From: Pempheris klunzingeri
Lineage: Eukaryota > Chordata > Actinopteri > Acropomatiformes > Pempheridae
Reading direction: 5' to 3'
DNA: 64,000 bases
Assembly (NCBI RefSeq): GCF_042242105.1
Contig: NC_092034.1
Coordinates: 624,144 to 688,143 of the forward strand
Below are positions 4,514 through 59,200 of the stretch, in pieces. Each line of letters begins with the position of its first letter. Within the stretch, counting starts at the first letter, position 1. The position numbers and the translations under genes were made by a program. The notes beneath the pieces were generated by a model that was not told the DNA's origin, did no database searches, and saw only the letters and a program-made list of their open reading frames with translations.

Positions 4514-7500
4514 ATGAAGGCAGCGCTGCTTTCCCTCCGTAAGTACGAGCGAGTGCTGGGGGGTCAGGAACACTCGCTGGGGGAGGACGAGAGGTTTCAC
4601 TGTATGTTCACTGAACTGGGTGGATTATTTCAAAGGAAAACAAGATGCTGAATTATTGTGAAGTTCTCACGTTTTAGTGATGGTTTTGAACAATGAAGTG
4701 GTCAAATGCATGTGTGAGTGTGTGTGTCTCTGCACACACACTCACACACACACACACACACACACACTCACTCAGTGATCTGGTGTGTTTCAGTGCTGCT
4801 GAGCTCCTGCAGGGTGTCGTCCCTCAGTCCTGGTAAGACCGACGCCTCCTGAATGTGTGACTGGTTGTTTTTAGCGTGTGATGTGAGGATTTGTTCTGCT
4901 CCTCTGGAAGGAGTCCGTCTGACTCCCCGGTCCAGGTGTTGGGACGTTGGTGTCATTGTAAAGTCTAAAGTTTCTGATAAACCTTCATGTGTGCCTGCTG
5001 CCCGCCACCTGTCGCCCACCACTTCCTGTCAGTCTGAGAACGGCTCGCCTGTTGCAAACAGAGACCACCTCCCGCTTCCACTGACAGCGCCCTCTAGTGG
5101 AAACTATGACGCGGGAGCCGAGCAGGAAGTCAAAACAGGAAGACAAATATGACTCTGAAGAATAACTGGTGGTACCGTCCAGAAAACGATGAGCACATGA
5201 TGTCTTGTTAGGATGCTAACGTTCTGCCTCCGTCTGTCTCCTCCAGCCTCGCTGACGGTGTCTCCCAGCAGGGGTCAGTACTTCGAGTATGAGGAGCTCT
5301 CTGTGAGCTGTGAACAGTTCGGCTCTGGAGAGTGGACGGTGTGGAGACACAACAGCAACAGGTCAGTTTATATCATCAGACAAATCATCATGAGAAAACA
5401 GACAAACGGCCAAGAGAAGCCGCTCAGTTTTCAAAATAAAAGCCCCCCTACAGACTGTCAGTGGTATATTCCAGCAGCACATCAGTATTATTCTCTAATG
5501 GGGGGGGGCACCAGGCCAGACGTCAGCCGCTCAGAGGGTTTTTAACACCATGACGACCAGAGGTTCATCTGGGATGGAGAAACACTCTGACTGTGACTTT
5601 AGCTGCTGTCTGTAGCTGCAGCACAACAAAGCAGGAAGTACATCCAAGAGACACATTTAAAGCAGCAGAAGAAGAAACGAGGCCTGTTTGATCCTGTTAG
5701 AGACACATTTAAAGCAGCAGAAGAAGAAACGAGGCCTGTTTGATCCTGTTAGAAACACATTTAAAGCAGCAGAAGAAGAAACGAGGCCTGTTTGATCCCG
5801 TTAGAAACACATTTAAAGCAGCAGAAGAAGAAACGAGGCCTGTTTGATCCCGTTAGAAACACATTTAAAGCAGCAGAAGAAGAAACGAGGCCTGTTTCAT
5901 CCCGTTAGAAACACAGCTTTGTTGTCATAGCAACAACAATAAAAAACAGAAAACAGGAAACGAACGGCAGTCTTCCAAGTTAAAAAATGCATGTTTTGTG
6001 TTGATCAAGAAGAAGAACGAGGCCTGATCACCGTAGCCAGACTGAACAAGGTGCCACCCTGGAGCTCGTTGTTGCTCTAAGGGTTAAACTGTGGCGTCTC
6101 CTCAGGTTGGGGGCTGCTCCCACCATGGAGCCCGTCCTGTCCCAGTGTGGCTCAGACTGGGGCAGCAGGAGCTCGTCCTCCTGCTACATCAAGACAGTGA
6201 AGGAGTCGGACAGCGGCGTGTACTGGTGTGAGTCCAACCAGCGACACAGCAGCAACGCCGTCAACATCAGCATCACCGGTAAGATCCAGGCCTCCTCCTC
6301 CTCCACCTTCATCACATTCAGTTTGAACACACCCTCATGTCTGTCCTGGGGGGGTTCTGTTCATGCTGGGGGTTAAATAAAACTGGGCCAGGCACTCACA
6401 CAGCTCAGGGGTCTGAAGGAAAGGTAACCAGGGTTTGTCAGGTGGTTCATGTGTGAACAAACAGACCAGTGGAAGAGAGTCTGGACTCGTCTGTCTCTGT
6501 GTTCAGGTGGTCCATCAGTGTTCAGGTGGTTCCTCTGTGTTCAGGTGGTCTACCAGTGTTCAGGTGGTTCCTCTGTGTTCAGGTGGTCTATCAGTGTTCA
6601 GGTCAGTGTTCAGGTGGTTCCTCTGTGTTCAGGTGGTTCATCAGTGTTCAGGTGGTCCATCAGTGTTCAGGTGGTCCATCAGTGTTCAGGTGGTCCATCA
6701 GTGTTCAGGTGGTTCCTCTGTGTTCAGGTGGTCCATCAGTGTTAAGGTGGTTCCTCTGTGTTCAGGTGGTCCATCAGTGTTCAGGTGGTTCCTCTGTGTT
6801 CAGGTGGTTCCTCTGTGTTCAGGTGGTCCATCAGTGTTCAGGTGGTTCATCAGTGTTCAGGTGGTTCATCAGTGTTCAGGTGGTTCATCAGTGTTCAGGT
6901 GGTTCCTCTGTGTTCAAGTGGTTCCTCTGTGTTCAGGTGGTCTGGTGATCCTGCACAGTCCCGTCCTCCCTGTGACGGGGGGGCAGGACGTCACCCTGCG
7001 CTGCACAACAAAGACGTCCTCCCCCATCCCGGCTGACTTCTATAAAGACGGCACCCTCATCAGGACCGAGCCCACAGGTCACATGACCATCCACAACTTT
7101 TCCAGGTCTGATGAAGGTTCCTACAAATGTGGCATCGGTGAAGAGTCTGAGTCCAGCTGGCTGCTGCTGGGGGGTAAAGTCACTCTGCTCACTTTATTTA
7201 TTTCAGCATCTTCAGCCTCTGGTTATCTGTTTACATGCCGGTGTAACGATCCAGTGAGAAGAGTCAGTGCCAATAAATCTCCCGGCCGATTGATTTGTCG
7301 CTAAAAGCTGCTGAGTGATGTTGGGACGGATCGGAACGAGGATCAGATTTAAAATGTGTTCAGATGTTAAATGATCACATATTTTCCTTTGTAAATGTTC
7401 TGAAACACAGCACAGTGTTTGCGATCAGACGTCACAGGTTTGTTTTCGTGACATCCTGCGGTGACCTTGGTTGTTTTATGTGGCTAATGGCTAGCAGCTA

Positions 7501-10500
7501 GCTAGCTAGCTAACAGGATAACGATCATCATTTAGCTTTTTTGATTCTTTTGTGTCATTTGGAGGAAGAATGTGGTTAAGTCATTGAAAACATTTAAAAA
7601 AATCTAAATGTGCTGCTAATAGAAGCACACAGGTACGGGGGGGTTCTTGTCCTTTCTTGGCCAGCGTCCTGCGGGCAGTATTAATTATGGATTATGATCA
7701 TAGATTATTATTGGATAGATTGATATTAGAGCAGCTGAAGTGTGACTGTACTGACGGCCTGTGTTCGTCCTCAGGAGACTCTGAGCCGCCGTCTCTCACA
7801 TTGTTGCCCGACTCGTCGCAGCTGTTTGAGTACGAGGACGTGACGCTGAGCTGCGGCGCCAACAGCAGCCGTCGGGGGTGGAGCATCGTCAGGGCCTCGG
7901 CCAACGTCCTGTCCGGCTGCGGGGAGCAGTGGGGGACTCGAACCTCGTTTGGCTGCGCCCTCCAGACCGCCAAGCAGTCCGACAGCGGCGTCTACTGGTG
8001 CCAGTCTGCTGCCAGGCAGCGGAGCAACTCTGTCAGCGTCAGCGTTCACGGTAGGAGCAACAACAGGGCTGTTTGCCCCCAGGGGCTGTTTGTTAGGGTG
8101 TATGTTAGTACATGTCAGAGGTGATGGTGTCCATCAGCAGGAGGCAGAGAACCGTCCGACGCACAGCGGAGTCCCTCAGGGAACCAACCGTGGACCTTTC
8201 ACCAAAATCTAAAGTCTTTCACAGCCGTAACTCCATTTCCCTGGTAACAGCTGACCGGTGGTTGCCCTCCCATCAGGTTCTCCCAACAGAGCCGACTGAT
8301 GTGGCCCAGGAAAGGGAGCTGTGGGGCCCCCACAGTGTTGCCAGGTGGGAAATGTAGAATTATCGAACCACAGACTTAAAATTATCGTATTTTGGGGTAA
8401 ATTATCGTCCACTCGTCATAACCAAAATAACAAGCTTACTGTTGGCGATAGTCAAATACAGTCGTTCTATATGTGTTTAAAAGCGTCCTCGTCCACTGCT
8501 GCGTGCTCCAGTTTAGTTGTGTTACACTAATGTGTCCCCCATAAACAGATGACAGGTGGGAACCAATGAGCTGAATCATGAGGCCACCCACCGTGAGGGA
8601 ACTGACACAGCAGGTTAACTTTTTTGAGCCAATCATGCTCGTTATTCCAAGACCAATGTCACCTGTATCCAGGTGCTCATATCTCACGCTAAACAAATTA
8701 CTTTTTTTGGTTGATTGATTGTACAGAGGGCAAAATTATTGTACAAATACGATAATTATTGTACACCTGGCAACACTGGGCCCCCATGGGTGAGCTGTTA
8801 GCATGCTAACGGTGGCTGTATTAGTAACTGACGTTAGCATGAGGCTAACGTTGAAGTTGTGAACAGCTGCTACAACCAGCTCACTGATGCAGGAAATGTC
8901 TGTGGCTTCATGTCCAGCGACACCAGCGACCCAAGAGTCTACAGTGAAGTCATCTGTTGTGTTATCAGTAACGTTTTCTTCCTCCGTGTTCAGATCAGCC
9001 GGTGATCCTGCAGAGTCCCGTCCTCCCTGTGACGGAGGGGCAGAACGTCACCCTGCTCTGCAGAACAAAGACGTCCTCCCACCTCCCAGCTCACTTCTAT
9101 AAAGATGGCCGCCTCATCGGGGCGGAGCCCACAGGTCACATGACCCTCCGCCGAGTCTCCAGGTCTGATGAAGGTTCCTACAGGTGTAACATCAGCGGCC
9201 AAGGAGAGTCTCCACCCAGCTGGGTCTACGTCACAGGTCAGGAGGCTGCTCATCTCACGTCTTAGCATCCGCAGCATTGATTTGATTGGCCAGCGCCGCC
9301 ACAGTTAGTGGAGTCAGGGAGGGCTCGCAGTGTTCGACCGTGGACGTCTACATTCATTCCTATGAAAGCTGCTCTGCGGAGCGTGAGGCCGATAAAGCTC
9401 CACTTCCTGGTATAAACTTTCTTCACCTGCGTCTGAGGGGCCAGATGGATTTTAAGGTTGTTTCCACCTGCTCACACAGTTAAAACCAGTTGAGGTGCTC
9501 GACTTTCAGCACCAAATACTAGAAATAATCCAGAGTGAGAAAACTGCAGTTAGCGAGCAGCTGTTTGTTCAGTTTCATGAACGGTGAGGCTGAAAACAGA
9601 GAGCACAGCGACACCTGGTGGTCTGGAGGAAACACAACCTGCTGAACCATGACACGTTCAGTTGGTTTCTGAAATTTGCATAAAAAGGTGGATGGAAATG
9701 AGGAGATGTGTCGAAACCTGGAACTAATTTCCAGATTTTATGTCCAGAAAGTGTGAAAATGTCACCAGCTGCTCAGATCTGAACCGTGACGCTGCTGTTC
9801 TGTGTTTCTGAGGCCTCAGACCTTTCCTGTCACCTGACCAGGCGTGTCTGCTGTACTTCCTGTCACCTGACCAGGCGTGTCTGCTGTACTTCCTGTCACC
9901 TGACCAGGCGTGTCTGCTGTACTTCCTGTCACCTGACCAGGTGTATCTCCTCTGTTGGTCTTAGATCCTCTCGGCTCGGCTCCCTCCTCCGCAGGTTTAA
10001 CCCCGTACGTGCTGATGCTGATCCGCCGCCTGGTGCTGGTCTCTCCGTACTTCCTGTCCACCGTCCTGCTGTGCTCTCTGTGCCGCCACAGGCCCACAGG
10101 TACGCCGGCCCAGCCCACCAATCAGCTGCCAGCGTGTCTCATCAGTCTGGATCAGTTCTCAGTGACAGCTTTAGTGTCGTGATGATTTCAGCTCTAAATG
10201 TGTAAAAGAAGTTCAGGTGTGTCGACAGCTTCATCCTCATTCCTCTACGGGCTTTTCTGTCATAGTTAGTGGTTAGTAGTTACTGGTGAGTAGTGAGTGG
10301 TTAGTGGTTAGTAGTTAGTGGTTAGTAGTTAGTAGTTAGTGGTTAGTGGTTAGTAGTGAGTAGTGAGTGGTTAGTAGTTAGAAGTTAGTGGTTAGTGGTT
10401 AGTAGTGAGTAGTGAGTAGTTAGTGGTTAGTAGTTAGTGGTGAGTAGTGAGTAGTTAGTGGTTAGTAGTGAGTAGTTAGTGGTTAGTAGTTAGTAGTTAG

Positions 10501-20715: not shown

Positions 20716-21747
20716 ATATTATTCCCACAGTTTTATTTGTTCTGTATTTTGACTGTGTTTCTGCTCGAAGCCTGTTCTTATTGGGAGGCGGCAATAATTA
20801 TAATAATTATACCGAGGTCCTGTCTGCTTTTTGTCCCCCCCCCCCCCCCCCCCCCGGTGGCCCCCTGCTGACATATACGGAGCCTGTATTGATCACTGTA
20901 CAGCATGATGGTAGCGCTACACTGCTGGATGATACAAGTTTGTTAAAATGGGGGGGGGGCAGGTTAATTCCAGTCTGGGGGGAAGTTGAGCCGGTATATG
21001 ATCAAATTATTACAAACATATTGTAAATGTAATCATTACACTTTATTTCTGTGATTATCCCGTGATGGAGGATTGAGAACGAGCCCTGAGCTCGTCTCCC
21101 TGATGATGGACTGTTTCTCCAGAGGCTGCTCTGAATGGTTCAGCCTCAGACGACACAGACTTGACGAACCTGGACCTTCAGCAGGACTCAGAACTGAAAT
21201 AAAAGCTTTTGATTCAGCAGCAGGAAACACGAGCGTTCACTTTCACTTCCACACAATCACTTCACTCATGTCTTTCATTCGTCCCCCAGCAGATTCTCCT
21301 CATGCTGAACCACCTGGACTCACTTTACTGTCATCTTACAGTCGCTTTAAATGAACGGCCGACTCCAGGATGTTGTTCCCAGCAGACGCTGAGGCGGCGG
21401 GAGGTGGAGCAGTGGGGACGTTCCCACAGTCTGGTTCTGTGTCGGCTCTGACTCCACCCAGGAGCAGCTCAGGGGAGTCGTCTGACTCCAGCAAACATCA
21501 GAAGAAACAACTGAAGCTTTCCAACCACAGAGATGTGACCATGTTCTCTCTAACCAGGTCACATGTTCCACCCAGCAGCGATGTGAAACCCACAGAACCA
21601 CACGACAAACACCAGAGCGACACTTTTATTGGTGCTGCAGAGAAACAAGCTGAAAAAGAGCAAAGCTACAGATGAACCACAGAAGAAGAGAGTGGATTGT
21701 GTTGATGAGGACAGGAGGCGCTGTGACACCAGTGTGGTTCAGAGGAC

Positions 21748-22013
21748 GTGGAGGAAGAAGAAGGTCCTGACGTGGAGGAAGAAGAAGGCCCTGACGTGGA
21801 GGAAGAAGAAGGCCCTGACGTGGAGGAAGAAGAAGGTCCTGACGTGGAGGAAGAAGAAGGGCCTGACGTGGAGGAAGAAGAAGGTCCTGACGTGGAGGAA
21901 GAAGGGCCTGACGTGGAGGAAGAAGAAGGCCCTGACGTGGAGGAAGAAGAAGGTCCTGACGTGGAGGAAGAAGAAGGTCCTGACGTGGAGGAAGAAGAAG
22001 GTCCTGACGTGGA
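21748..22013. repeat. 24-bp minisatellite, left-arm copy
   Basis: Eleven units of gacgtggaggaagaagaagg-tcct, one of them 3 bp short. The mirror array in the right arm (44010-44086) has only three. Open in several frames, but no other coding sign. Confidence 0.9.
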
Positions 22014-22174
22014 GGAGCAGCTGCAGGCTGGCTCATCAGCAGCTGGACCGCTGAGGAGGTGTGAAGGTCGACCTCAGTGAAGAGACGACTGGAAACTCTG
22101 GACTCAAACACAAACAGTTCAGACAAATGAAAAGCTGAGAAACAGCCCCCCCCCCCAGCAGATTAACAGGTTCA

Positions 22175-22180
22175 TTTATT
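22175..22180 (-). promoter_or_regulatory. Poly(A) signal of FCRL-b
   Basis: AATAAA on the minus strand 57 bases past the FCRL-b stop codon. A second AATAAA overlaps the stop itself at 22235-22240. Both are kept in the right-arm remnant. Confidence 0.55.
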
Positions 22181-22236
22181 CAGAAAATCAGTTTTCACCT
22201 AAATAAACTAAGATGTCGTCCTGACAGAAGCTTTTT

Positions 22237-25127
22237 TTATTCTGACAGACAGTATTTCCCATCAGGCCGCTGCACCTTTTGTCCTGTTTGGTCTCTGATG
22301 ATGATTTGTCCATAAATTACGTTTTCTGGATCTGAAACTGGACCTGCAAAATAAAATACATAGAGTTCACTTTAATAATCTGCTGTTAGTCTGATGTTAA
22401 TCTGCTGTTAGTCTGTTGTTAGTCTGTTAATCTGCTGTTAGTCTGTTGTTAGTCTGCTGTTAGTCTGTTAATCTGATGTTAGTCTGCTGTTAGTCTGTTA
22501 ATCTGATGTTAGTCTGCTGTTAGTCTGTTAATCTGATGTTAGTCTGATGTATGTCTGTTAATCTGCTGTTAGTCTGCTGTTAGTCTGATGTTAGTCTGTT
22601 AATCTGATGTTAGTCTGCTGTTAATCTGCTGTCATGACGGGACGCTAGCTCGGGGACGTAGCATAGTTAGCTCGCTAGTTAGCAGGTGAAGAGAAGATGT
22701 AGCTCACTGAGCGGTTTGACTCCAAACTAAATGGTTCTTCTTCTTCTTTGGTACATTTTCACCACAAACTGAGACTTTACTGACTTTAAAATCATCTTTG
22801 AACTGACAAACATCCTGTGAGAGATTCAGGGAACAATTCAAACTTTATTTGTCTCTTTGTCTTCTTCTGAAATCAGGTCTGTTTTCTAGCGTTGGTCCGT
22901 GATGGAGACGAAGAAGAGCAGTTTTACCTCTGATCCTGTTTGGTCTGACGTCTCTGATGACTATTTTTCCGTAACAGACGTCTTCTGTCCTTCTCACAGC
23001 CGAGTAGACGGCAGCAGGATCCGTCTCTGAGGAATAAAAGGCCCTGAACTCACATCACTGGAGCATTACAGCTGTTAGGATATGAAGTGTTCCCACTGCT
23101 GCAGAAACTACACACACTGGTTCAGATTCATCATTCATTTATATTATTTCTTTGTTTTATTAGCAGCCCCACAGGAAATGGACAGGTCCGTGTTCAGAAG
23201 TGTTTTTATCAGAAACAGGAAGTTCGGCGACCACAGAGCTGCTCTTTTCTGTTAGCAGATGAACCATAGAGACAGAAACCCACAGGGTGAGCTGCTGCCA
23301 TCAGCTAGAACAACCACACTGAGCAGGAAACAACATCTACGTCTGCCTTATTTTCAAATGTAACACTAACAAGTGTCCTCTTAAGGTGTGAATCTCATGT
23401 GGTCCTCACATGGATATAAGGACAAGAACACACACACACACACAGTTAGGATCAATAAAACCATCATTACCGCGGCTCCCTCTGATTGGCTGCTGCAGGT
23501 CAGCAGGTGTTCTTACACCATCTCCCACTTCAGTGGCTGAAATCAACCAAAATGGACAGAAATTTCTATTTTATTTCTGTTTTGAACTCGACACTGATTT
23601 GGATTTTAACCTTCTAAAAATTCTCACTTCAAAACCACCAGACTCCTTTGACAAAAACAGTCATTTCACCTTGAAGGTGGAGGGAGCTGCAGGTCTGCTG
23701 CTGTCTCAGTTAATGAACACATTCGATTGGATCTGAAGTTAAAACACCATTTAAAACGCCAAAGTCACAAAATAAAACAACCAAAGTGATCAATAGAGGC
23801 AGCAGCAGAGCAGCAGCTCCTGTGTCCTGTGAGCTAAAATCACTGCTTTTGTCAATGGAGTCTGGCGTGTTTGAAGTGATTGACAGAGCTCAGAGTCTGA
23901 AAGCAATGAAAGCAGAGAAATATTCAAAATGCACAATTAAACTATTTTCTGCCCCCCCATCGACAGCGGTACATTGCTCAGTGTTTTCAGAAATAATCTG
24001 AACTGTCCCTTTAAGGACGCAGTTTGTAAATGGAGTCGAAAATAGAAAGTTGAAATTTTATAGTTAGTTTCTACGTGAGTGTAAATATTCAGAGTCAAAA
24101 GTGCAGCAGATGGTTGTAAATAAATCATGAAGCACAGTTTGTGTTCTTTACTTTCTTGTCTCACCTTTAGGTTTCCTATTGAAGCACCGCAGAACCAGCA
24201 GAACCAGCAGAACCATCAGAACCAGAACACAGACGGATGGAAGAGCAGACCACAACACGGAGGAGGAGGAGGGTGTTGAAGGAGGACCGGCAGTGGTGGG
24301 TTTCTCTAAGATGAACAAAAAATCAAAATGTTTTCCTGGTTTGATTTTCAGTGTTTGATATCAGATGAATCTCGACATGAAGGCGACCCTCTGACCTGTG
24401 ACCCTCTGACCTGTGACCCTCTGATCTGTGACCCTCTGACCTGTGACCCTCTGACCTGTGACCCTCTGACCTGTGACCCTCTGATCTGTGACCCTCTGAC
24501 CTGTGACCCTCTGACCTGTGACCCTCTGATCTGTGACCCTCTGACCTGTGACGTAGATCCAGCTGGGTGGAGACTCTCCTTGGGCGCTGATGTTACACCT
24601 GTAGGAACCTTCATCAGCCCTGGAGACTCGGCGGAGGGTCATGTGACCTGTGGGCTCGGCCCCGACGAGGAAGCTATCTTTATAGAAGTGAGCTGGGAGG
24701 TGGGAGGACGTCTTTGTTCTGCAGCACAGGGTGACGTCCTCCCCCTCCATCACAGGGAGGACGGGACTCTGCAGGATCACCGGACCACCTGAACACAGAA
24801 ACTGCAGCCTGTCATGGGTCCACACGGCTTCATCAGCGCCCCCCCTCCTCCGGCCGGTCTTACCAGTGATGGTGATGGTGATGGGGGAGCCGGTGGCTCC
24901 CTCTCTGGACTCACACCAGTAAACTCCACTGTCCAGTGTGATGGAGTCAATGATGTCACAGGAGGGACCAGAACCTTCTCCCCAGTCTCCTCCACACTCA
25001 GTCCTGGTTTCTTTACTCGTGTTCCTCCTCAGCGTCCATTCAGCAGAGCCGCCGTCGTCCTCACAGCTCAGAGAGACAAACTCTTCTTCAAACAGCTGAG
25101 AGCTGCTGGGACTCACAGTCAGACGAC
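22237..25127 (-). CDS. Inhibitory Fc-receptor-like protein, two Ig domains, ITIM-like tail (FCRL-b)
   Basis: Type I immune receptor on the minus strand. Exons found: D1 25127-24864 (FVSLSCEDD ... DSGVYWCES), D2 24788-24546 ([20 protein letters not shown] ... [10 protein letters not shown]), membrane exon 24305-24165 ([20 protein letters not shown] then RCFNRKPKG), tail exon 23026-22928 (AVYSAV and VCYGKIVI) and last exon 22343-22237 (NVIYGQIII ... KYCLSE, stop). Together 284 codons after a phase-1 signal exon. VCYGKI and VIYGQI fit the ITIM consensus (V/I/L/S)xYxx(V/I/L), which recruits SH2 phosphatases when phosphorylated (family knowledge). D2 nearly equals D4 of FCRL-a. The signal-peptide mini-exons, expected above 25130, were not identified, so the 5' end is incomplete. 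The D2 donor sits in a 15-bp ladder of donor copies. Confidence 0.8.
22372..22640. repeat. GTTAGTCTGCT/GTTAATCTGAT minisatellite
   Basis: About 25 copies of a 10-11 bp unit in the intron between the two tail exons of FCRL-b. Confidence 0.85.
24386..24552 (-). repeat. 15-bp minisatellite made of the FCRL-b D2 splice donor
   Basis: On the minus strand D2 ends TACGTCACAG followed by gtcagag; the next bases are eleven tandem units of GGTCACAGGTCAGAG. Each unit thus re-creates CACAG|GTCAGA. Three units carry ACAGATCAGA, lacking the GT. The unit is 15 bp, so every copy has the same phase and translates as (V/T)GQR-type pentapeptides with no stop. Confidence 0.9.
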
Positions 25128-25132
25128 CTGCA

Positions 25133-26470
25133 GGGATTTAGGATACAGAAAACCTAAAACCAAGAACAGGACTATGACACAAGCTGAGGACCAGTGATCA
25201 GGTGAACCGACGGGAAGAGTTTAATAAGACAGAGTCCAGAAACACAGCTGCCGTGCACACATGCATGATCCCCACTGTTGTGGTTCTGCAGAGAGTTTTA
25301 GTTCTTTCTAACCTGGTCAGTGTTTCCAGGGTGTTACTACAGAGTCGAGCTTCATCACGTTCATCATGGCTTTACTCTTAGTTTTATCACAACATGTCGT
25401 CTGAAGGACACGAACAAGAAAATACACCGTATTCGACGATATGCAGACAATGGAACTGTCTCTGTAGGAAGTGAACTGAAGGGAGCTCAGAGCTCAGTGT
25501 TAAACTGCTTCTCTCAGCTGGATTAATGATGGAAATGATCGACTGCAAATGCCTTTAAATCCCGCTGAGACAGTTTGGACCTGTTGAGTTGACAAAGAAG
25601 GTGATTTCATGCTAAGAGCTGTTTTCGTGACTCACCGCTGTCGCTCAGACTCCACATGTCAGATGAACTCGTCTTTAATCCGAGTAGCTCCAGAGTCTGA
25701 CGGCTCGTCTCAGAGAGAGCAGATCAGCGACACTGAGACTGGCTGCGTCTGTCAGGAGGTCTTAGAGGTGACGTCCGAGCTCAAAGTGAAGCAGGAAGCG
25801 TTAAAGGCAGCTTGTGATAAACAGCCGAGTGGTCGTCCTCTCTCCAGACACCTCCCTCCCTCTGCGCTGCTCCTCTTTGTTCCTGTGAAGCTCGCTGACG
25901 TGGACGGGAACAGTTTGTAGCTGTGATAACAGCGGAGCTGGGAGACAAATTAAAGAGTGGACATCATGGATTTAGTAGAACATCACAACTGTGACTTCCT
26001 GAAACCTTTGAACACTAGATTTCTCTCTGTTTGCTCTTTATTCTGCTTTTCCTCACTTGTTCTCTCAGTTTCGATCAATGAAATCATATTTCTATAACAA
26101 ACTTTGCTGATCAGTAAAGGTGTTTGTATCTTTCTCCCTCTTGGTGATGTGAAAGCAACACTTCTGTAAAACCAGCTCAACCCACAAACTTCCTCTGCAT
26201 GCGTGAGTTTACTGACAGGAAAAGAGGCGATTTGGGTTCATTTAGCAGCTCAGAGGTGAACCATCACTAAATACAGTGCGACAGGTGAGGAGGGGTGAGA
26301 CAGGTGAGCTGCAGACAGCCCAGCGTCCGTCTGGTGGAGGAGACTGAAGAGAAAATGATGGTTTCTGGGAGTTATGATATACAAACGGACAGACGACTGA
26401 TGGGTTCAGCATAACGTCACTCATCAGTAATCATATTACTGTTATTTATTTTATTTTATTTATTGTTTTA
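25133..26470. other. Duplicated spacer between FCRL-b and Vset-A
   Basis: No exon recognised with confidence. It is nearly identical to 42515-43640 reversed; for example, 25609-25920 reads the same as 42982-43293 by eye. It contains shared short open frames on both strands without family features. The signal-peptide exons of FCRL-b may be in or above this stretch. Confidence 0.5.
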
Positions 26471-26837: not shown

Positions 26838-28388
26838 GAAACACACCCACATTCTTTCATGGACAGCAGAGATTATTCCCATCACAGCCGGAGGGTTCAG
26901 TCAGTCTGAGAAGAGCCTTTAATTCAGGTTCACAGGTGAAATCCAACGCTGGGGTTCAGGCAGCGCCGGGCTCGTGACTGGTTCTGGTCAGAGGAGCCAA
27001 GAACTGGGTTTTCCAACAGATCTTAAAGGTCCTGACAGAGATTATCACACGCAACCATTGTTTTATTGGATTCTGAGGTCCGTGCGTCAGTCTGTAGCAG
27101 GTTTCTGTTTCTGTTTCTTACAATCAAGAACATTTCATCTCTTCTTTCTGATTCTCCAAACACCAGTCTGTACGGTCAGACTCACCCTCACAGTGAGGGA
27201 GAGGTCTGTTAAAGCAGAAGAACGTTTTCTTTGAATCATCAAAGTTAGTAGTTATCAAACCCACAAAGGTGAATGAGAAAGCCCCCGAAGCCAGTTAGCC
27301 AGAGAGAAACTCTATTGTAACTCTAGACTGTATCAGGCTACAGAGGCATTTTGGCTGGTGTTGTGCCGCAAGATTATTATAATGTAAAAAATGTGCCGTG
27401 GGTCAAGAAAGGTTGAAACTCTGCTGTAGACGACCACATACATGGCCGCAGGCGCTCAGATGTTCCAGCAGAGGAGGCCAAAGATGAGCCAGCGTTCAGG
27501 TCTGCTGCTTATTTTTAGATTGGACTCACGGTACAAACATAAAGCAGAGATACCTGGAAACTTTAAAATCACAGCTAACAAACATGTTCTCCGTCTCTGT
27601 GGTTGACTTTTCCATCCAAATCAGATTGTACCTGTACAACCTGTGGTCATGTTCCCTCTAAAGGATCCAAAGGTTCTAACGCAGGAGGAGACGACCAGAA
27701 TCACTTTAACTTTAACTTCAACATTTCTATAAATATAACATTTCAAATGATCAACAATCTAATCTGTATATGGCATCTGGAAACATCCTCACTCTATATT
27801 CTGTACATACTTTCTATATTTCTTTGCACTTGCTGCTAATTGCACTTCTGGTTAGATGCCAAACTGTATTTCATTGCCTTGTACTGTGCAGGTGTTTAGC
27901 TAGAAACTCTGATATTACAACAAAATGTCTTCAATGTTAATAAGCACTTCAAATCATCAAGTGTTTCATGTGTTTCTCAGACGTTGTTCAGGTCAGTGTG
28001 AGCTGACAGACTGGTGTCTCCTCTGGTAATTTAAGAAGTAGATGTAATATCTTGACTGTAAGAAACAGAACGTTCTTGTTTTATAAACTTATTCCTACGC
28101 AGACAACGCTGACGGCTGCTGCAGACTGACGTACGGACCTCAGCGTCCAATCAATGGTTACGTGTGATATTGTGACGCTCTGCCCTTTAAGATCTGTTGG
28201 AAAACCCAGTTCTCGGCTCCTCTGACCAGAACCAGTCATGAGCCCGGCGCTGCCTGAACCCCAGCGTTGGATTTCACTGGATTTCACCTGTGAATCTAAA
28301 TTAAAGGCTCTTCTGAGACCGACTGAACCCTCCGGCTGTGATGGGAATAATCTCTCCTGTCCATTAAAGAATGAGGGGGTGTTTCTTC
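26838..28388. mobile_element. Fold-back element with about 300-bp inverted arms
   Basis: 26838-27130 and 28045-28388 are imperfect inverted copies of each other (shared words include agagattattcccatcaca, gggttttccaacagatctta and tctggtcagaggagcc). A loop of about 900 bp lies between them, and contains a retroposon-like tail (ctgtatttcattgccttgta). The right arm of the large palindrome has no counterpart, so it probably entered or was lost after duplication. No transposase frame. Could be a non-autonomous DNA element or a local inverted duplication. Confidence 0.55.
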
Positions 28389-29204: not shown

Positions 29205-30868
29205 ACTGACACACACACACACTCTCACACTCTCACACACACACACAGACACACTGGAAAAAATGACGCAGTGGATCTGGAGTCAAACTGAAAATTCAAT
29301 TTCTTTTTGCACTATTTCTTTCATCTTGCACTTTCTGCCTCTTTCCACCTCAACATTGTTTTTTTTGCACCGTCCATGAGAGCTGCTGCTTTTATTCCAG
29401 TGTCGTTGTGCTTCGTGCTCAATGACAATAAAAGAATTCTGATTCTGATTCTGAAGCTGGTGTCGACTGATTCTTAGATTTTCCTCAACAAACTAAAGAA
29501 CGAGAAACTAAAGAGAGCGAGAGAGTACAAAGACGGTTAATGCTGACGCTGAACAACAAGAGAGGAGGAGGAGGAGCAGGGGGAGGAGCAAGGGGAGGAG
29601 GAGCAGGGGGAGGAGGAGCAGGGGGAGGAGGAGCAGGGGGAGGAGCAAGGGGAGGAGGAGCAGGGGGAGGAGGAGCAGGAAGAGGAGCCTATTTCCTTGC
29701 AACAGCTGTCGTCTCTCTCAGCGTTTCATGGAAAAGGAAAACAGAAGTTCAGCTCACTGTCGTCTGGACGTGACTGTTTCAGGACTTTTTCACATTTAGT
29801 TTTGGTCTCTGGTCTTTTGGACGTAGTCGTACTTTCCTCCAGGCTGTAAAGGCAGTCACATGACCGCCACTGTGATGCATCATGGGAAAGGTCACGGTGC
29901 CATGGAGGGTTTGAATGGTCCACGAAAACCTCTGACCGCCATGAGAGACGGAAATAGAACTAGAAACGGTTGGCCATTGACACAGCTAACAGCATGCTAA
30001 CAACATGCTAAACGCACAGCTAACAGCATGCTAACAACATGCTAAACGCACAGCTAAGAGCATGTTTCTCAGCCGCCTCACATGACGCTCAAACACTAGT
30101 AGCAGCTGCTCAGACAAAAGGTTTTTTCTCGTCTTTCCACACAATCACAACCAAAGAACCCTTGCTGACTGTTACTTCCTGTTTTGTTGTGTTTCAGACA
30201 TGCTGACAGTGACATCATTCACTGGGCAGAACGCTGTCCTTCAGTGTTTGTACCCCAACCAGGACGCCGTCACTAAGATCGCGTGGACTCGGCAGAACCT
30301 GAGCGACTACGTGCTGTTCATCAGGGAGAACCGCTCGTATGAAAGGTACCAGAACCCGGCGTTTGTGGACCGAGTGCAGCTCAGAGACCCTCAGAGAGGA
30401 GACTTCTCTCTGGACATGAAGAGGGTGACGGCCAACGACACGGGGGTGTACGAGTGTGTGGTGTCCTCCTCCAGCAGAGCTCGCAGCAGGAGAGCAGCCG
30501 TGTTCAGGCAGACGGTCAGCCTGAAGGTCAGGAGGTCGGCTGATTCAGGTAAACGCTGCTTCCATTGAGTCGGACTCTGTGTTGCTCTTCATCATCAGCT
30601 GCCTCACACCTGTTTCTGCTCTGCAGGTCTGAACGCTGAGCAGAAGGAAGGAGCCAGGGCTGCACCCACTGCTGCTCCTAGACCCAATGATCCACCCACT
30701 GCTGGAGGTCCTAAACAGCATTTTGTTCTGCCGCTCATCGGTCTTGTCCTTGTTGGGTTTGTTGTTGGGTTTGTGATCTTTAAGAAATACACCTCCTCCA
30801 AGAGGCGGGAGGAGGTTTTCACTGTGCCCAGTGAAAACCTCCATGAGAGGAAGTTGCCACTGCTTTAG
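28765..30868 (+). CDS. B7/butyrophilin-type V-set membrane receptor (Vset-A)
   Basis: Complete three-exon type I membrane protein of 219 aa: 28765-28831 (signal peptide MKTAAVTSVLFVTLWRFSQA), 30198-30548 (V domain: NAVLQCLYP, KIAWTRQNLSDYVLF, DRVQLRDPQRGDFSLD, NDTGVYECVV) and 30627-30868 (Pro/Ala stalk, membrane helix FVLPLIGLVLVGFVVGFVIF, tail KKYTSSKRREEVFTVPSENL to stop). N-glycosylation sequons are visible at NLS, NRS and NDT. The tail has no tyrosine-based signalling motif beyond a juxtamembrane KKYTSS. An in-frame upstream ATG at 28741 would add eight residues; 28765 is preferred because it matches the 67-nt signal exons of Vset-1 and Vset-B. An out-of-frame ATG lies at 28731. It is divergent from FCRL-b and is the mirror of Vset-B. 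Ligand unknown. Confidence 0.85.
28866..28976. repeat. 53-bp direct duplication in Vset-A intron
   Basis: ttctttaacttcttcatttc ... gagggtttttattc occurs twice in tandem; the right arm has a single reversed copy near 41640-41690. Confidence 0.85.
29169..29250. repeat. (CA)n microsatellite
   Basis: Interrupted CA repeat in the Vset-A intron. Confidence 0.9.
29330..29458 (+). mobile_element. Retroposon 3' tail ending (TTCTGA)n
   Basis: ctcaatgacaataaaagaat followed by tctgattctgattctga, a characteristic fish LINE 3' end with a hexamer tail. Confidence 0.55.
29559..29690. repeat. Purine-rich minisatellite in Vset-A intron
   Basis: Repeats of gaggaggagcagggg (15-18 bp). The mirror intron of Vset-B has a related purine-rich array on the same transcript strand at 41010-41285. 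Confidence 0.85.
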
Positions 30869-39643: not shown

Positions 39644-41749
39644 CTAATGACAACAACAAGGACATATGGGACATTCATGAGGACATGGACAATCGGGTGG
39701 ATCATTGGGTCTAGGACCTCCAGCCCTGGCTCCTCTTGGCTCAGCGTTCAGACCTGCAGAGCAGAAACAGGTGTGAGGCAGCTGATGATGAAGAGCAACA
39801 CAGAGTCCGACTCAATGGAAGCAGCGTTTACCTGAATCAGCCGACCTCCTGACCCTCAGGCTGACCGTCTGCCTGAACACGGCTGCTCTCCTGCTGCGAG
39901 CTCTGCTGGAGGAGGACACCACACACTCGTACACCCCCGTGTCGTTGGCCGTCACCCTCTTCATGTCCAGAGAGAAGTCTCCTCTCTGAGGGTCTCTGAG
40001 CCGCACTCGGTCCACAAACGCCGGGTTCTGGTGCCTTTCATACGAGCGGTTCTCCCTGATGAACAGCACGTAGTCGCTCAGGTCCAGCCGAGTCCACGCG
40101 ATCTTAGAGAAGGCGTCCTGGTTGGGGTACAAACACTGAAGGACGGCGTCCTGCCCGCTGAACGATGTCACTGTCAGCATGTCTGAAACACAACAAAACA
40201 GGAAGTAACAGTCAGCAAGAGGAACGCTCGCTATGGCGGTGCTGAGTGCTTTTATCCCTTTATACAAGTGCTGTTAGCCTGTTGTTAGCATGCTGTTAGC
40301 ATGAGATCTTGTCTAAATGACACGCGGTTGGTGGGAACTACTTTTTCTTCCGCCTGGGTAAGTGCGTCATGCGTAAGCGCAGCGGCACGCTGCTCCGTGC
40401 TGTCAGTCAGTCACAGTGTGAGTTGTTCCTGAACAAGAACCTGTGAATGAGGAACAACAGTGTCAGTGTTGGATGCTGTGTTATTCACATGTTCACTATT
40501 TACATGTTAACATGTCCATGTAACGTGAATTAAGACGCAAGTTTGCATCTTTATAGTGGTTCTTAATAATTAAAGAAGAATTTATTTGAATGTTTTTATA
40601 ATTGTACTCATTTTCTTTGTTTCACAGAAACACCATTTTCACATATTTTGTATGATTGTGTCCTCCCTTTGGTTTTTCTATTGTTGTATTAACTCGGCTA
40701 TATTGTAAATGAGGCCGCTACCTCAATATACTTCAGAGTTTAAAATAAATAAAAAAACAAATGACTCTGCCTTATATTTGAAATACACTTCTTTTTTTAG
40801 ATTCAAAAGACATATTAGGTGTAGTCGCATAAAATATAGGTATCGGTGTTGGTGTCGCCGATACCAGCCTGAATTTTACTCAGTGTCGGATCGGAAAGGA
40901 AATCAGTGGTATGGAACATCACTACTCAGGAGGAGAAACTTTGTTTTCCCTTTTCTATGAAACACTGAGAGAGACGACAGCTGCTGCAAGAAAATAGGCT
41001 CCTCCTTCTCATCTTCCTCCTCCTCCTCCTCCTCCTCCTCCTCCTTCTCATCTTCCTCCTCCTCCTCCTTCTCATCTTCCTCCTCCTCCTCCTCCTCCTC
41101 CTCCTCCTCCTCCTCCTTCTCATCTTCCTCCTCCTCCTCCTTCTCATCTTCCTCCTCCTCCTCCTCCTCCTCCTCCTTCTCATCTTCCTCCTCCTTCTCA
41201 TCTTCCTCCTCCTCCTCCTTCTCATCTTCCTCCTCCTCCTCCTCCTCCTCCTCCCCCTCCTTCTCATCTTCCTCCTCCTCCTCTTAGGTTTTAGTTCTTT
41301 AGTAGTTTGTCGTGGCAAATCTAAGAATCAGTCGACAACTCAGAGATCCACTGCGTCATTTTTTTCAGACTGTTTCCAGGCTGTTTTCCAGACTGTTTTC
41401 AGACTGTTTTCAGACTGTTTCCAGACTGTTTCCAGGCTGTTTTCCAGACTGTTTCCAGGCTGTTTCCAGACTGTTTTCCAGACTGTTTTCAGACTGTTTC
41501 CAGGCTGTTTTCCAGACTGTTTTCAGACTGTTTTCAGACTGTTTCCAGGCTGTTTCCAGGCTGTTTTCCAGACTGTTTTCCAGGCTGCTCCCAAACAGAT
41601 CAGATGTTTAAACGTTGTTTCTCATGAATACAGAAGAATAAAAACCCTCCTGACTGAGACTAAAGGGTGAAATAAAGAAGTTAAATAAGCAGCAGAATCT
41701 ATTTTATTGATGAGAAACAAAAACATCTATGACGTCATCTAACTATAGT

Positions 41750-42274: not shown

Positions 42275-43757
42275 AACAACACACACAGACACACACACAC
42301 AGACACACACACACAATAACACACACAGACACACACACACTAAATCAGTGACAGAGTCTTCGTCACACACACACTAACACCTGGACACACACACCTGAGT
42401 GGAGACGGACAGACGGACATTCACAGTCAGGATGTAACAGGTGAACAGGTGAACACTTACTTCACTCTCAGGTGAGACAAACTGTGCATGAGGACGAGCT
42501 GAAAGCCTTTAAAACTCCCAGAAACCATCATTTTCTCTTCAGTCTCCTCCACCAGACGGACGCTGGGCTGTCTGCAGCTCACCTGTCCGCAGCTCACCTG
42601 TCTGCAGCTCACCCGTCTGCAGCTCACCTGTCTCACCCCTCCTCACCTGTCTCACTGTGTTTAGTGATGGTTTGCCTCTTTTCCTGTCAGTAAACTCACG
42701 CATGCAGAGGAAGTTTGTGGGTTGAGCTGGTTTTACAGAAGTGTTGCTTTCACATCACCAAGAGGGAGAAAGATACAAACACCTTTACTGATCAGCAAAG
42801 TTTGTTATAGAAATATGATTTCATTGATCGAAACTGAGAGAACAAGTGAGGAAAAGCAGAATAAAGAGCAAACAGAGAGAAATCTAGTGTTCAAAGGTTT
42901 CAGGAAGTCACAGTTGTGATGTTCTACTAAATCCATGATGTCCACTCTTTAATTTGTCTCCCAGCTCCGCTGTTATCACAGCTACAAACTGTTCCCGTCC
43001 ACGTCAGCGAGCTTCACAGGAACAAAGAGGAGCAGCGCAGAGGGAGGGAGGTGTCTGGAGAGAGGACGACCACTCGGCTGTTTATCACAAGCTGCCTTTA
43101 ACGCTTCCTGCTTCACTTTGAGCTCGGACGTCACCTCTAAGACCTCCTGACAGACGCAGCCAGTCTCAGTGTCGCTGATCTGCTCTCTCTGAGACGAGCC
43201 GTCAGACTCTGGAGCTACTCGGATTAAAGACGAGTTCATCTGACATGTGGAGTCTGAGCGACAGCGGTGAGTCACGAAAACAGCTCTTAGCATGAAATCA
43301 CCTTCTTTGTCAACTCAACAGGTCCAAACTGTCTCAGCGGGATTTAAAGGCATTTGCAGTCGATCATTTCCATCATTAATCCAGCTGAGAGAAGCAGTTT
43401 AACACTGAGCTCTGAGCTCCCTTCAGTTCACTTCCTACAGAGACAGTTCCATTGTCTGCATATCGTCGAATACGGTGTATTTTCTTGTTCGTGTCCTTCA
43501 GACGACATGTTGTGATAAAACTAAGAGTAAAGCCATGATGAACGTGATGAAGCTCGACTCTGTAGTAACACCCTGGAAACACTGACCAGGTTAGAAAGAA
43601 CTAAAACTCTCTGCAGAACCACAACAGCTGTGTTTCTGGACTCTTCCATGTTCGGTTCATTTGACTTTTTATATATCTACATATCGCACACACACACCTG
43701 TGATGTTGGTGCTTCTACATCACACAGTGCAGTCTCTCTCTCTGTTATATTAACAAT

Positions 43758-43784
43758 GATGGGAAATACTGTCTGTCAGAATAA
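43758..43784 (+). pseudogene. Remnant of mirror FCRL-b last exon
   Basis: gatgggaaatactgtctgtc plus agaataa is the last nine codons and stop of FCRL-b, in mirror orientation, followed by the same 3' UTR with AATAAA. About 110 bp of unrelated sequence precedes it, after which the arm resumes at the counterpart of about 25230. All Ig, membrane and first tail exons are gone. Confidence 0.75.
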
Positions 43785-44009
43785 AAAAAGCTTCTGTCAG
43801 GATGACATCTTGGTTTATTTAGGTGAAAACTGATTTTCTGAATAAATGAACCTGTTAATCTGCTGGGGGGGGGGGCTGTTTCTCAGCTTCTCATTTGTCT
43901 GAACTGTTTGTGTTTGAGTCCAGAGTTTCCAGTCGTCTCTTCACTGAGGTCGACCTTCACACCTCCTCAGCGGTCCAGCTGCTGATGAGCCAGCCTGCAG
44001 CTGCTCCTC

Positions 44010-44086
44010 CACGTCAGGACCTTCTTCTTCCTCCACGTCAGGACCTTCTTCTTCCTCCACGTCAGGACCTTCTTCTTCCTCCACGT
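44010..44086. repeat. 24-bp minisatellite, right-arm copy
   Basis: Three units of the repeat that has eleven units at 21748-22013, in reverse complement. Confidence 0.9.
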
Positions 44087-44343
44087 CCTCTGAACCACAC
44101 TGGTGTCACAGCGCCTCCTGTCCTCATCAACACAATCCACTCTCTTCTTCTGTGGTTCATCTGTAGCTTTGCTCTTTTTCAGCTTGTTTCTCTGCAGCAC
44201 CAATAAAAGTGTCGCTCTGGTGTTTGTCGTGTGGTTCTGTGGGTTTCACATCGCTGCTGGGTGGAACATGTGACCTGGTTAGAGAGAACATGGTCACATC
44301 TCTGTGGTTGGAAAGCTTCAGTTGTTTCTTCTGATGTTTGCTG

Positions 44344-56253: not shown

Positions 56254-59200
56254 TCAGATGGGGGTCTCCTTGTTGTGTTTGAGGTCCGGTGCGCTGAACT
56301 GTCGTCTCATCCTGGGCGGGGTGGTGAAGCCCCACCCACCCTGCGGAGGCCCCGCCCCCAGCATCATGTCAGCGGGAGGGGGCGGGGCCCCGGAGCGCGG
56401 CAGGCTGTGGTAGTTGGGGTGAGGTCCTGGCTGGAATGGTGCATTGTGGGGGTTGTAGTAGGGGTGGTGGTGGAACTGATGGTGCTGGTGAGGGTTATAA
56501 TGGAAGCTTCTGTCTCTGTCCCTCCCTCCTCCTACTCCTCCTCCTCCTCCTCTCCACTCTCCTCTCTCCCCGCCTGACCCGGGCGACACCCCCCTCCTCT
56601 GTCTTGGTCGCCCCTGGTGACCTCCGCCGCCATGATGTTGATCGTTGTCATAGTTACTGTTGCCGTGGGTGGAGCTGTCCAGAGAGTTGCGGCGGTGGCG
56701 GCGCTGGTGGTTTTGGTTGTTGCCGTGGTGCTGGTAGTGGAAGCTGCCCTGGTTACCCTGGTTGCCTTGGTTACGTTGTTGCCAGGCACGATGAGGGCTG
56801 GGCGTTCGCATGCGGGGGGGCTGAGGCTGGAAGGGGAGGGGCAAGAGAGCAGGGGACTGACCCTGAGGAGGAGGAAGAGGAGGTGGTGACGGAGAACCTT
56901 TACCCTCCACTCCTCCTCCCCCCTCCTCCCTCTGCTCCGCCCCCTCCCCTCCTGCCTCCCCCAGGCCCAGAGCCTGCAGGGCGGCGCTGGCTGGTCCCCA
57001 TGACAACCGATGGGCGGGGTTACTCTTGAAGGGGAACTTGAGCTTGCACTCCTGCGGAGGGATGAAGCGGCCGGTCCCGGGGAGGTGAACGGGGACAACG
57101 GGGGAGTTCTGACCTGCAGGACGGGGGACACAGGGGGGGAGAGGTGATTTAAAGGGTTTGTTCAGATCCAACACTGTACGAGACTGACACGGGTTAAACA
57201 TGAGCGGCATCATGGGACACGGGTTAAACGTGAGCGGCATCATGGGACACGGGTTAAACGTGAGCGGCATCATGGGACACGGGTTAAACGTGAGCGGCAT
57301 CATGTGACACGGGTTAAACGTGAGCGGCATCATGGGACACGGGTTAAACGTGAGCGGCATCATGGGACACGGGTTAAACGTGAGCGGCATCATGTGACAC
57401 GGGTTAAACGTGAGCGGCATCATGGGACACGGGTTAAACATGAGCGGCATCATGTGACACGGGTTAAACGTGAGCGGCATCATGGGACATGTGGATCCAC
57501 TGACCCTGGCTTTGGTTCTGGTTCTGTCCTCGGAGCTTCTTGGTGATGTTCTGCTGCTGCAGGTTCAGGATCCGCTGCTGTTCCTGCTTCAGCCAGCGGA
57601 GGCGTCCTCTCCTGAACGCCGGGTCCTCGTCCATCAGCCGCTTCACTCTCACCTCCGGCACGCGCGCACCTTCCTCCGCCTCGCCCCCGTCGTTCTCGGG
57701 GGACCCGTCCTCCTGGCCGTTCACGTCTTCGTCCTAGAAACGAGAGGAAACCAGAGGGAGGGGGGGGGTCAGAGAGCTGTCGCTGGGCGCCTGGCGGTCA
57801 GCCAATGGCCCCTGACGTGTGGACGTACCTGAACAGGTATGATGCTCTCCATCTTGATCATTCTGTCTCTCAGAGCTTTGATCTCCTCGTCCTTCATGTT
57901 GTTCTGCAGCTTCACCTCCTGAAAGAGTCACGGCCGTGTTAGCTTTATAATGAGCTAACGTTAGCATGCTAAAGGAAGACAGGTTCAGACAGGACCCTCC
58001 TCTGATTGGTCAGTGAGCAGGTAGCCCCACCCTGTAGTTTTGAACAGAGCAATAATGTAGCAGCTTCTTTACACAGACTGATACCGACCAATCAGAGGAC
58101 GCTTCTTTACACAGACTGATACCGACCAATCAGAGGACGCTTCTTTACACAGACTGATACCGACCAATCAGAGGACGCTTCTTTATAGACTGATACCGAC
58201 CAATCAGAGGACGCTTCTTTATAGACTGATACCGACCAATCAGAGGACGCTTCTTTATAGACTGATACCGACCAATCAGAGGACGCTTCTTTACACAGAC
58301 TGATACCGACCAATCAGAGGACGCTTCTTTATACAGACTGATACCGACCAATCAGAGGACGCTTCTTTACACAGACTGATACCGACCAATCAGAGGACGC
58401 TTCTTTACACAGACTGATACCGACCAATCAGAGGACGCTTCTTTATAGACTGATACCGACCAATCAGAGGACGCTTCTTTATAGACTGATACCGACCAAT
58501 CAGAGGACGCTTCTTTATAGACTGATACCGACCAATCAGAGGACGCTTCTTTATACAGACTGATACCGACCAATCAGAGGACGCTTCTTTATAGACTGAT
58601 ACCGACCAATCAGAGGACGCTTCTTTATACAGACTGATACCGACCAATCAGAGGACGCTTCTTTATACAGACTGATACCGACCAATCAGAGGACGCTTCT
58701 TTATACAGACTGATACCGACCAATCAGAGGACGCTTCTTTATACAGACTGATACCGACCAATCAGAGGACGCTTCTTTACACAGACTGATACCGACCAAT
58801 CAGAGGACGCTTCTTTATAGACTGATACCGACCAATCAGAGGACGCTTCTTTATACAGACTGATACCGACCAATCAGAGGACGCTTCTTTATACAGACTG
58901 ATACCGACCAATCAGAGGACGCTTCTTTATAGATTGATACCGACCAATCAGAGGACGCTTCTTTACACAGACTGATACCGACCAATCAGAGGACGCTTCT
59001 TTATAGACTGATACCGACCAATCAGAGGACGCTTCTTTATAGACTGATACCGACCAATCAGAGGACGCTTCTTTACAGACTGATACCGACCAATCAGAGG
59101 ACGCTTCTTTACAGACTGATACCGACCAATCAGAGGACGCTTCTTTATACAGACTGATACCGACCAATCAGAGGACGCTTCTTTATACAGACTGATACCG

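Follow-up and report, generated by a model that had tools for sequence, protein, structure and literature searches.

The 64,000-nucleotide stretch of Pempheris klunzingeri DNA analyzed here (the window) carries two neighboring FCRL-like receptor genes, gene A on the plus strand and the two-domain gene b on the minus strand. Gene b featured a D1 Ig exon of 264 nt (24864..25127), a D2 Ig exon of 243 nt (24546..24788), and a 141-nt exon for the stalk and a transmembrane-like segment judged by eye (24165..24305), all three with phase 1 on both sides. These were followed by a cytoplasmic exon with VCYGKI (22928..23026, boundaries checked) and by the last coding exon with VIYGQI and the stop codon (22237..22343; acceptor checked, stop assigned by eye). 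VCYGKI and VIYGQI are taken to be ITIM-like motifs on the basis of the ITIM consensus. Joined in phase 1, the five exons read open up to the stop and presented the FCRL/FcR-like layout, in which each Ig domain occupies one phase-1 exon and is followed by a transmembrane exon and cytoplasmic tyrosine motifs. FcgammaRI and FceRI chains aligned over D1-D2. Among solved proteins the best match to D1-D2 was FCRL5 (1.9e-17), over query residues 65-155 and so for the most part in D2; the FcgammaRI match spanned both domains (1.3e-10, residues 3-154). The Pfam search returned Ig_3 on D2 only (3.2e-11, residues 91-156) and no domain on D1. The 75-nt intron between D1 and D2 (24789-24863, minus strand) is a multiple of three and contains no in-frame stop; its retention would keep the frame and add 25 residues.

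Simple scans, which can miss a short or distant exon, revealed no exon that convincingly encodes a signal peptide of gene b. When a start, a hydrophobic stretch, and a phase-1 donor were required between 25.14 and 33 kb, one match was obtained (30721-30610), antisense to a V-set domain gene. A looser scan of 25.13-30 kb, with no donor test, yielded 13 hydrophobic starts, for example MHVCTAAVFLDSVLLNSS at 25266 and another at 27443. The likeliest first exon by position, 25657-25636, reads only MWSLSDSG. Further FCRL exons were absent from the 44 kb before and the 20 kb after the window in a tblastn search (E <=0.01). The V-set domain gene itself is present as two inverted copies (30161-30697 and 39695-40219) that are 95% identical and have long tandem arrays between them.

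Gene A has a full signal peptide, which reads into its D1, and four Ig domains as judged by alignment to gene b and by eye. Its first Ig domain is split between exons 5247-5361 and 6106-6278 (plus strand) by an extra intron (CAACAG|GTCAGT ... CTCAG|GTTGG) containing a 52-bp array, while D1 of gene b is one exon; the extra intron is a possible intron gain. The transmembrane-like exon of gene A (9995-10099, plus strand) contains arginines, identified by eye, as in activating receptors, and together with the ITIM-like motifs of gene b this looks like an activating/inhibitory pair. Gene A also carries an array at a junction, with a unit of mostly 19 bp in 24 acceptor-like copies (6499..6941, plus strand; copies from 6506 to 6936), the last of which is the D2 acceptor 6936|6937. 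AG ends 23 of these 24 copies, and the exception, the copy at 6917 adjoining the authentic site, ends in CAA. A step of 19 bp shifts the reading frame, so that the upstream sites are in part out of phase; seven of these acceptor-like sites combine the right phase with an uninterrupted frame and would add 19 to 137 residues.

At the donor end of D2 in gene b, TRF called a tandem repeat at 24385-24552 (period 15, 11.2 copies, 96% matches, score 315). Eleven full copies of the unit TCACAGGTCAGAGGG are in register with the exon end, running on the minus strand from 24551 down to 24387 (24387..24551). The period-15 self-match score of the array was 129, and none of 2000 mononucleotide shuffles of 24100-25140 scored above 10. 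The eleven 15-bp copies proposed in the initial annotation are thus real by the TRF call, the list of units, and the shuffles; its exact registration of the array on the D2 exon end was also borne out, copy 1 (24551-24537) spanning the boundary after 24546. Each unit consists of TCACAG, then G or A, then TCAGAGGG, the donor +1 position being the sole variable base, and is made up of 7 exonic and 8 intronic bases at the predicted exon boundary. An identical intact donor, CAG|GTCAGA, was found in 8 of the 11 copies. The presumed authentic one is that of copy 1, whose last D2 exon base is 24546, the same position as in a 93%-identical paralogous exon; the seven others have their last exon base at 24516, 24501, 24471, 24456, 24441, 24411, and 24396 (minus strand). 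The three copies said to have lost the GT were identified as copies 2, 5, and 9, which read CAG|ATCAGA (24531, 24486, and 24426, minus strand). Written from copy 1 to copy 11 with G for intact and D for dead, the pattern is GDGGDGGGDGG. Copies 4-7 and 8-11 both read GDGG, which is compatible with growth in four-unit blocks.

The paralogous exon is D4 of gene A (8994..9236, plus strand), which aligned to D2 of gene b with 93.05% identity over 259 bp, the alignment ending 5 bp beyond the junction 9236|9237. Here the donor, GTCACAG|GTCAGGAGG (CAG|GTCAGG), occurs only once. If the state in this one homolog is taken as ancestral, the array appears to be derived, the junction having been tandemly duplicated in gene b. 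A genome-wide pattern search with a 20-mer (<=1 mismatch; assembly of 645.9 Mb in 439 contigs) found 15 places: ten in the window array, four on contig C13, and one on contig C18. In the part that was read, the C13 array has a similar unit arranged differently from the window array. Also in the window, a 30-bp array (57186-57489, minus strand) starts about 15 bp past an apparent donor, near the junction and not across it; the exon beside it is presumably kinesin KIF1C-like.

The D2 donor after 24546 and the transmembrane acceptor TTTTTTGTTCATCTTAG|AG at 24306|24305 are joined in phase 1 on both sides, and the reading from D2 into the transmembrane exon is open for all 11 copies. From the eight intact donors, introns of 240, 210, 195, 165, 150, 135, 105, and 90 nt result, with 0, 10, 15, 25, 30, 35, 45, and 50 residues added as a (G/D)QRVT stalk before EKPTTAGPP. 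The proposal that intact copies are equivalent donors in the same phase was therefore upheld by eight identical sites, all phase 1, leading into an open transmembrane exon. The absence of a stop from the unit was also correct, but the open frame is weak evidence because all three minus-strand frames of the unit are free of stops. Two parts of the earlier proposal required adjustment. Among its example junctions, 24546 and 24516 are GT donors while 24531 belongs to a dead copy, so the possible extended isoforms are those with 10, 15, 25, 30, 35, 45, and 50 additional residues. Likewise, one pentapeptide per step is right as to phase, but with copy 2 dead the smallest extension is 10 residues and not 5.

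When the minus-strand GT sites from 24640 down to 24150 were scored with a donor frequency matrix, which gives rough ranks, only nine exceeded 2, namely the eight donors of the array, at 2.98 each, and the donor of the transmembrane exon, at 6.72 (matrix maximum 8.63). An array donor this weak (2.98 of 8.63) could favor competition among donors. The unspliced frame passes through the array and stops shortly beyond it (MSRFI), and a retained D2-transmembrane intron would yield a form without the membrane exon. As far as sequence can indicate, the layout is that of a series of in-phase donors equivalent to one another.

Of the bases in the window, 31.7% belong to tandem repeats (66 merged arrays; 20 minisatellites with a period >=9 and >=5 copies), and for a junction to lie in an array is therefore not rare here. 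When all 63,999 rotations were evaluated, the FCRL junctions of the two genes were not enriched inside minisatellites, 2 of 26 being observed against 6.3 expected. For junctions located in an array and within 20 bp of its edge, the count was 2 against 0.35 expected (P 0.049; 26 junctions, 20 minisatellites), and 20,000 random rotations of coordinates deviating by as much as 4 bp agreed with the full rotation set. The registration is thus slightly above chance, and some selection on the array register may have acted. The rotation result reads as arrays being permitted no farther than the exon edge and is not proof of function. In both junction arrays a dead copy adjoins the authentic site: copy 2 in gene b, where 3 of the 10 other copies are dead, and copy 6917 in gene A, where this applies to 1 of 23. 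If dead copies were placed at random, the joint probability would be ~0.013; the coincidence was noticed after the fact, and post hoc it hints at competitors being suppressed rather than exploited.

An inverted duplicate of gene b (42513-44343, corresponding to 21489-26373) keeps the 5' part of the gene (42852-43627 = 25275-26050, 776 bp, 100% identical) and its 3' end (99%), lacks D1 to the transmembrane exon, and has ~130 bp between the kept parts. A 24-bp array near the 3' end of gene b (21745-22016) contains 11.5 copies, versus 3.5 copies in the inverted duplicate (44005-44087), while the flanks of the two arrays are 99.1% and 99.4% identical. These copy numbers within 99%-identical flanks indicate a recent copy-number change at this neighboring array, and such change appears likely in the neighborhood of gene b.

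We consider the gene b array to be probably a 'mirage', a nearly neutral repeat in which copy 1 is mostly used and later copies are used to some extent. In a fish-like FCRL gene that encodes ITIM-like motifs, a short segment straddling the exon-intron boundary would have been tandemly duplicated. Slippage or unequal exchange would then have enlarged the array, with growth in four-unit blocks perhaps coming last. Since each duplication took the boundary along, eight units would still be identical in-phase donors. Copy 1 would probably serve most transcripts, so that the normal receptor is made, and later intact copies, copies 3 and 4 first, would be used at a lower level, adding 10 or 15 (G/D)QRVT residues. 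Use of later copies would be harmless because the units are in frame, and near-neutrality would explain the persistence of the array, every intact donor giving an open frame and a plausible intron. In favor of this reading are the single-copy donor of the homologous exon, the comparable array on the acceptor side of an exon in gene A, the abundance of arrays in the window, and the copy-number turnover close by; the slight edge excess and the weak donor count against it. That copy 1 probably carries most splicing is suggested by IFI6 and the amphioxus genes, that is, by precedent, and the precedents are mixed, since ABCA7 and the CBS intron 7/exon 8 junction point the other way.

The same eight identical in-phase donors, each leaving the frame open and an intron no shorter than 90 nt, would also suit a regulated or polymorphic stalk ruler in which several donors are substantially used, copy number varies between fish, and stalks are up to 50 residues longer. 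In human IFI6 a minisatellite at the donor gives rise to three mRNAs, according to the part of PMC4526556 concerned with it, and the CBS 31-bp junction VNTR varies between 16 and 21 copies in people, as given in the portion of PMC2630376 on that repeat; close to gene b, the 24-bp array has changed copy number. We nevertheless regard such a ruler as unlikely. Copy 2, which would be the natural first alternative, is dead, the amphioxus AG/GT repeats reportedly left regular splicing undisturbed (PMC3087553, in its account of those genes), and the QRVT stalk bears no sequence sign of selection; a functional, tuned stalk is possible but unsupported. Very unlikely, in our view, is an extended version in which donor choice and allele copy number set the stalk length of an inhibitory FCRL, with the sister acceptor array adding in-frame D2 steps of ~19 residues.

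Less easily dismissed, although we hold it only as a tentative possibility, is that gene b is degenerate and makes no surface receptor, so that array splicing is without consequence; this would be compatible with a mirage origin. It is favored by the want of a convincing signal-peptide exon in simple scans and by the inverted duplicate at 42.5-44.3 kb, which lacks D1 to the transmembrane exon and keeps the 5' part and the 3' end. However, those scans could miss a short or distant exon, the adjacent gene A has a full signal peptide, and in gene b itself D1, D2, the transmembrane exon, and the two cytoplasmic exons are open and in phase 1, with intact ITIM-like motifs. A role of the array as a seed of intron gain or exon growth, in which units holding both AG and GT (CACAG|GT) could become exon or intron as in mirages, strikes us as the most improbable reading. 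The unit does contain CAG|GT, the model has been described for amphioxus globins (in the relevant part of PMC3087553), and D1 of gene A, unlike that of gene b, is split by an extra intron with a 52-bp array. But that array lies 286 and 189 bp from the boundaries of the gene A D1 intron, and the AGs of the gene b array look like poor acceptors because the unit lacks a polypyrimidine tract.

If several donors were used, one locus would provide a native receptor series differing only in the spacer, in steps of 5 to 10 residues, and the effect of Ig-to-membrane distance on inhibitory signaling would become testable with native isoforms. Even if copy 1 alone were used, eight identical donors in a row, with exon and acceptor held constant, would show cleanly and in a natural setting which of several equal 5' splice sites the spliceosome selects.

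In the part of the open-license literature that was searched with FCRL and fish, none of the titles concerned an array at a splice junction of an FCRL gene from fish. Arrays at junctions are known from other genes. The amphioxus 'mirages' of Adh3 and the globins BflGb6 and BflGb9 are minisatellite-like tandem duplications at exon-intron boundaries; in the sections of PMC3087553 that treat them, both 5' and 3' boundaries are affected, the repeats are length-unstable, many units keep AG/GT, and regular splicing is reportedly undisturbed. The same sections propose, for the globins, a mirage model of intron gain, with degenerate repeats within a supposedly gained intron (PMC3087553). As in the mirages, the gene b unit spans the predicted boundary, is single-copy in one homolog, and keeps the GT in 8 of 11 units. 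It differs from them in belonging to a vertebrate-like immune receptor, in having a 15-bp unit that is a multiple of three, and in the near-identity of its copies.

With human IFI6 (6-16/G1P3), gene b shares an in-frame unit with several intact donors, here 15 bp and eight donors. In the IFI6 splice-donor minisatellite, the first repeat is said to be the exon end and the unit to be 12 bp and in frame, and the 130-residue form is reportedly the product of the first donor. Downstream donor use has been reported for IFI6 and is putative in gene b, three of whose copies lack GT. The IFI6 portion of PMC4526556, which cites Turri 1995, specifies that two downstream repeats serve as donors, giving the three mRNAs, and that the 130-residue form predominates.

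In human ABCA7, exon 18 has as its donor the first GT of a 25-bp VNTR in intron 18. Splicing also takes place from the next unit downstream, giving a form that the pertinent part of PMC5954066 does not call minor. The same part correlates VNTR length, which ranges from ~12 to 427 units among alleles, with exon 19 skipping (PMC5954066). Unlike the unit of gene b, the 25-bp unit is out of frame. The CBS VNTR, c.1444_1467+7(16_21), crosses the boundary as in gene b, with 24 exonic and 7 intronic bases by its notation, but its 31 bp are not a multiple of three and CBS is an enzyme, not a receptor. An acceptor-side case in the same gene is 844ins68, a duplicated intron 7/exon 8 junction of which the distal site is strongly favored, as stated in the passage of PMC2630376 on this insertion. 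Part of PMC2812944 likewise considers tandem repeats located at exon-intron boundaries in duplicated genes of humans. With the amphioxus mirages, IFI6, ABCA7, and CBS as its counterparts, the gene b array belongs to an already known kind.
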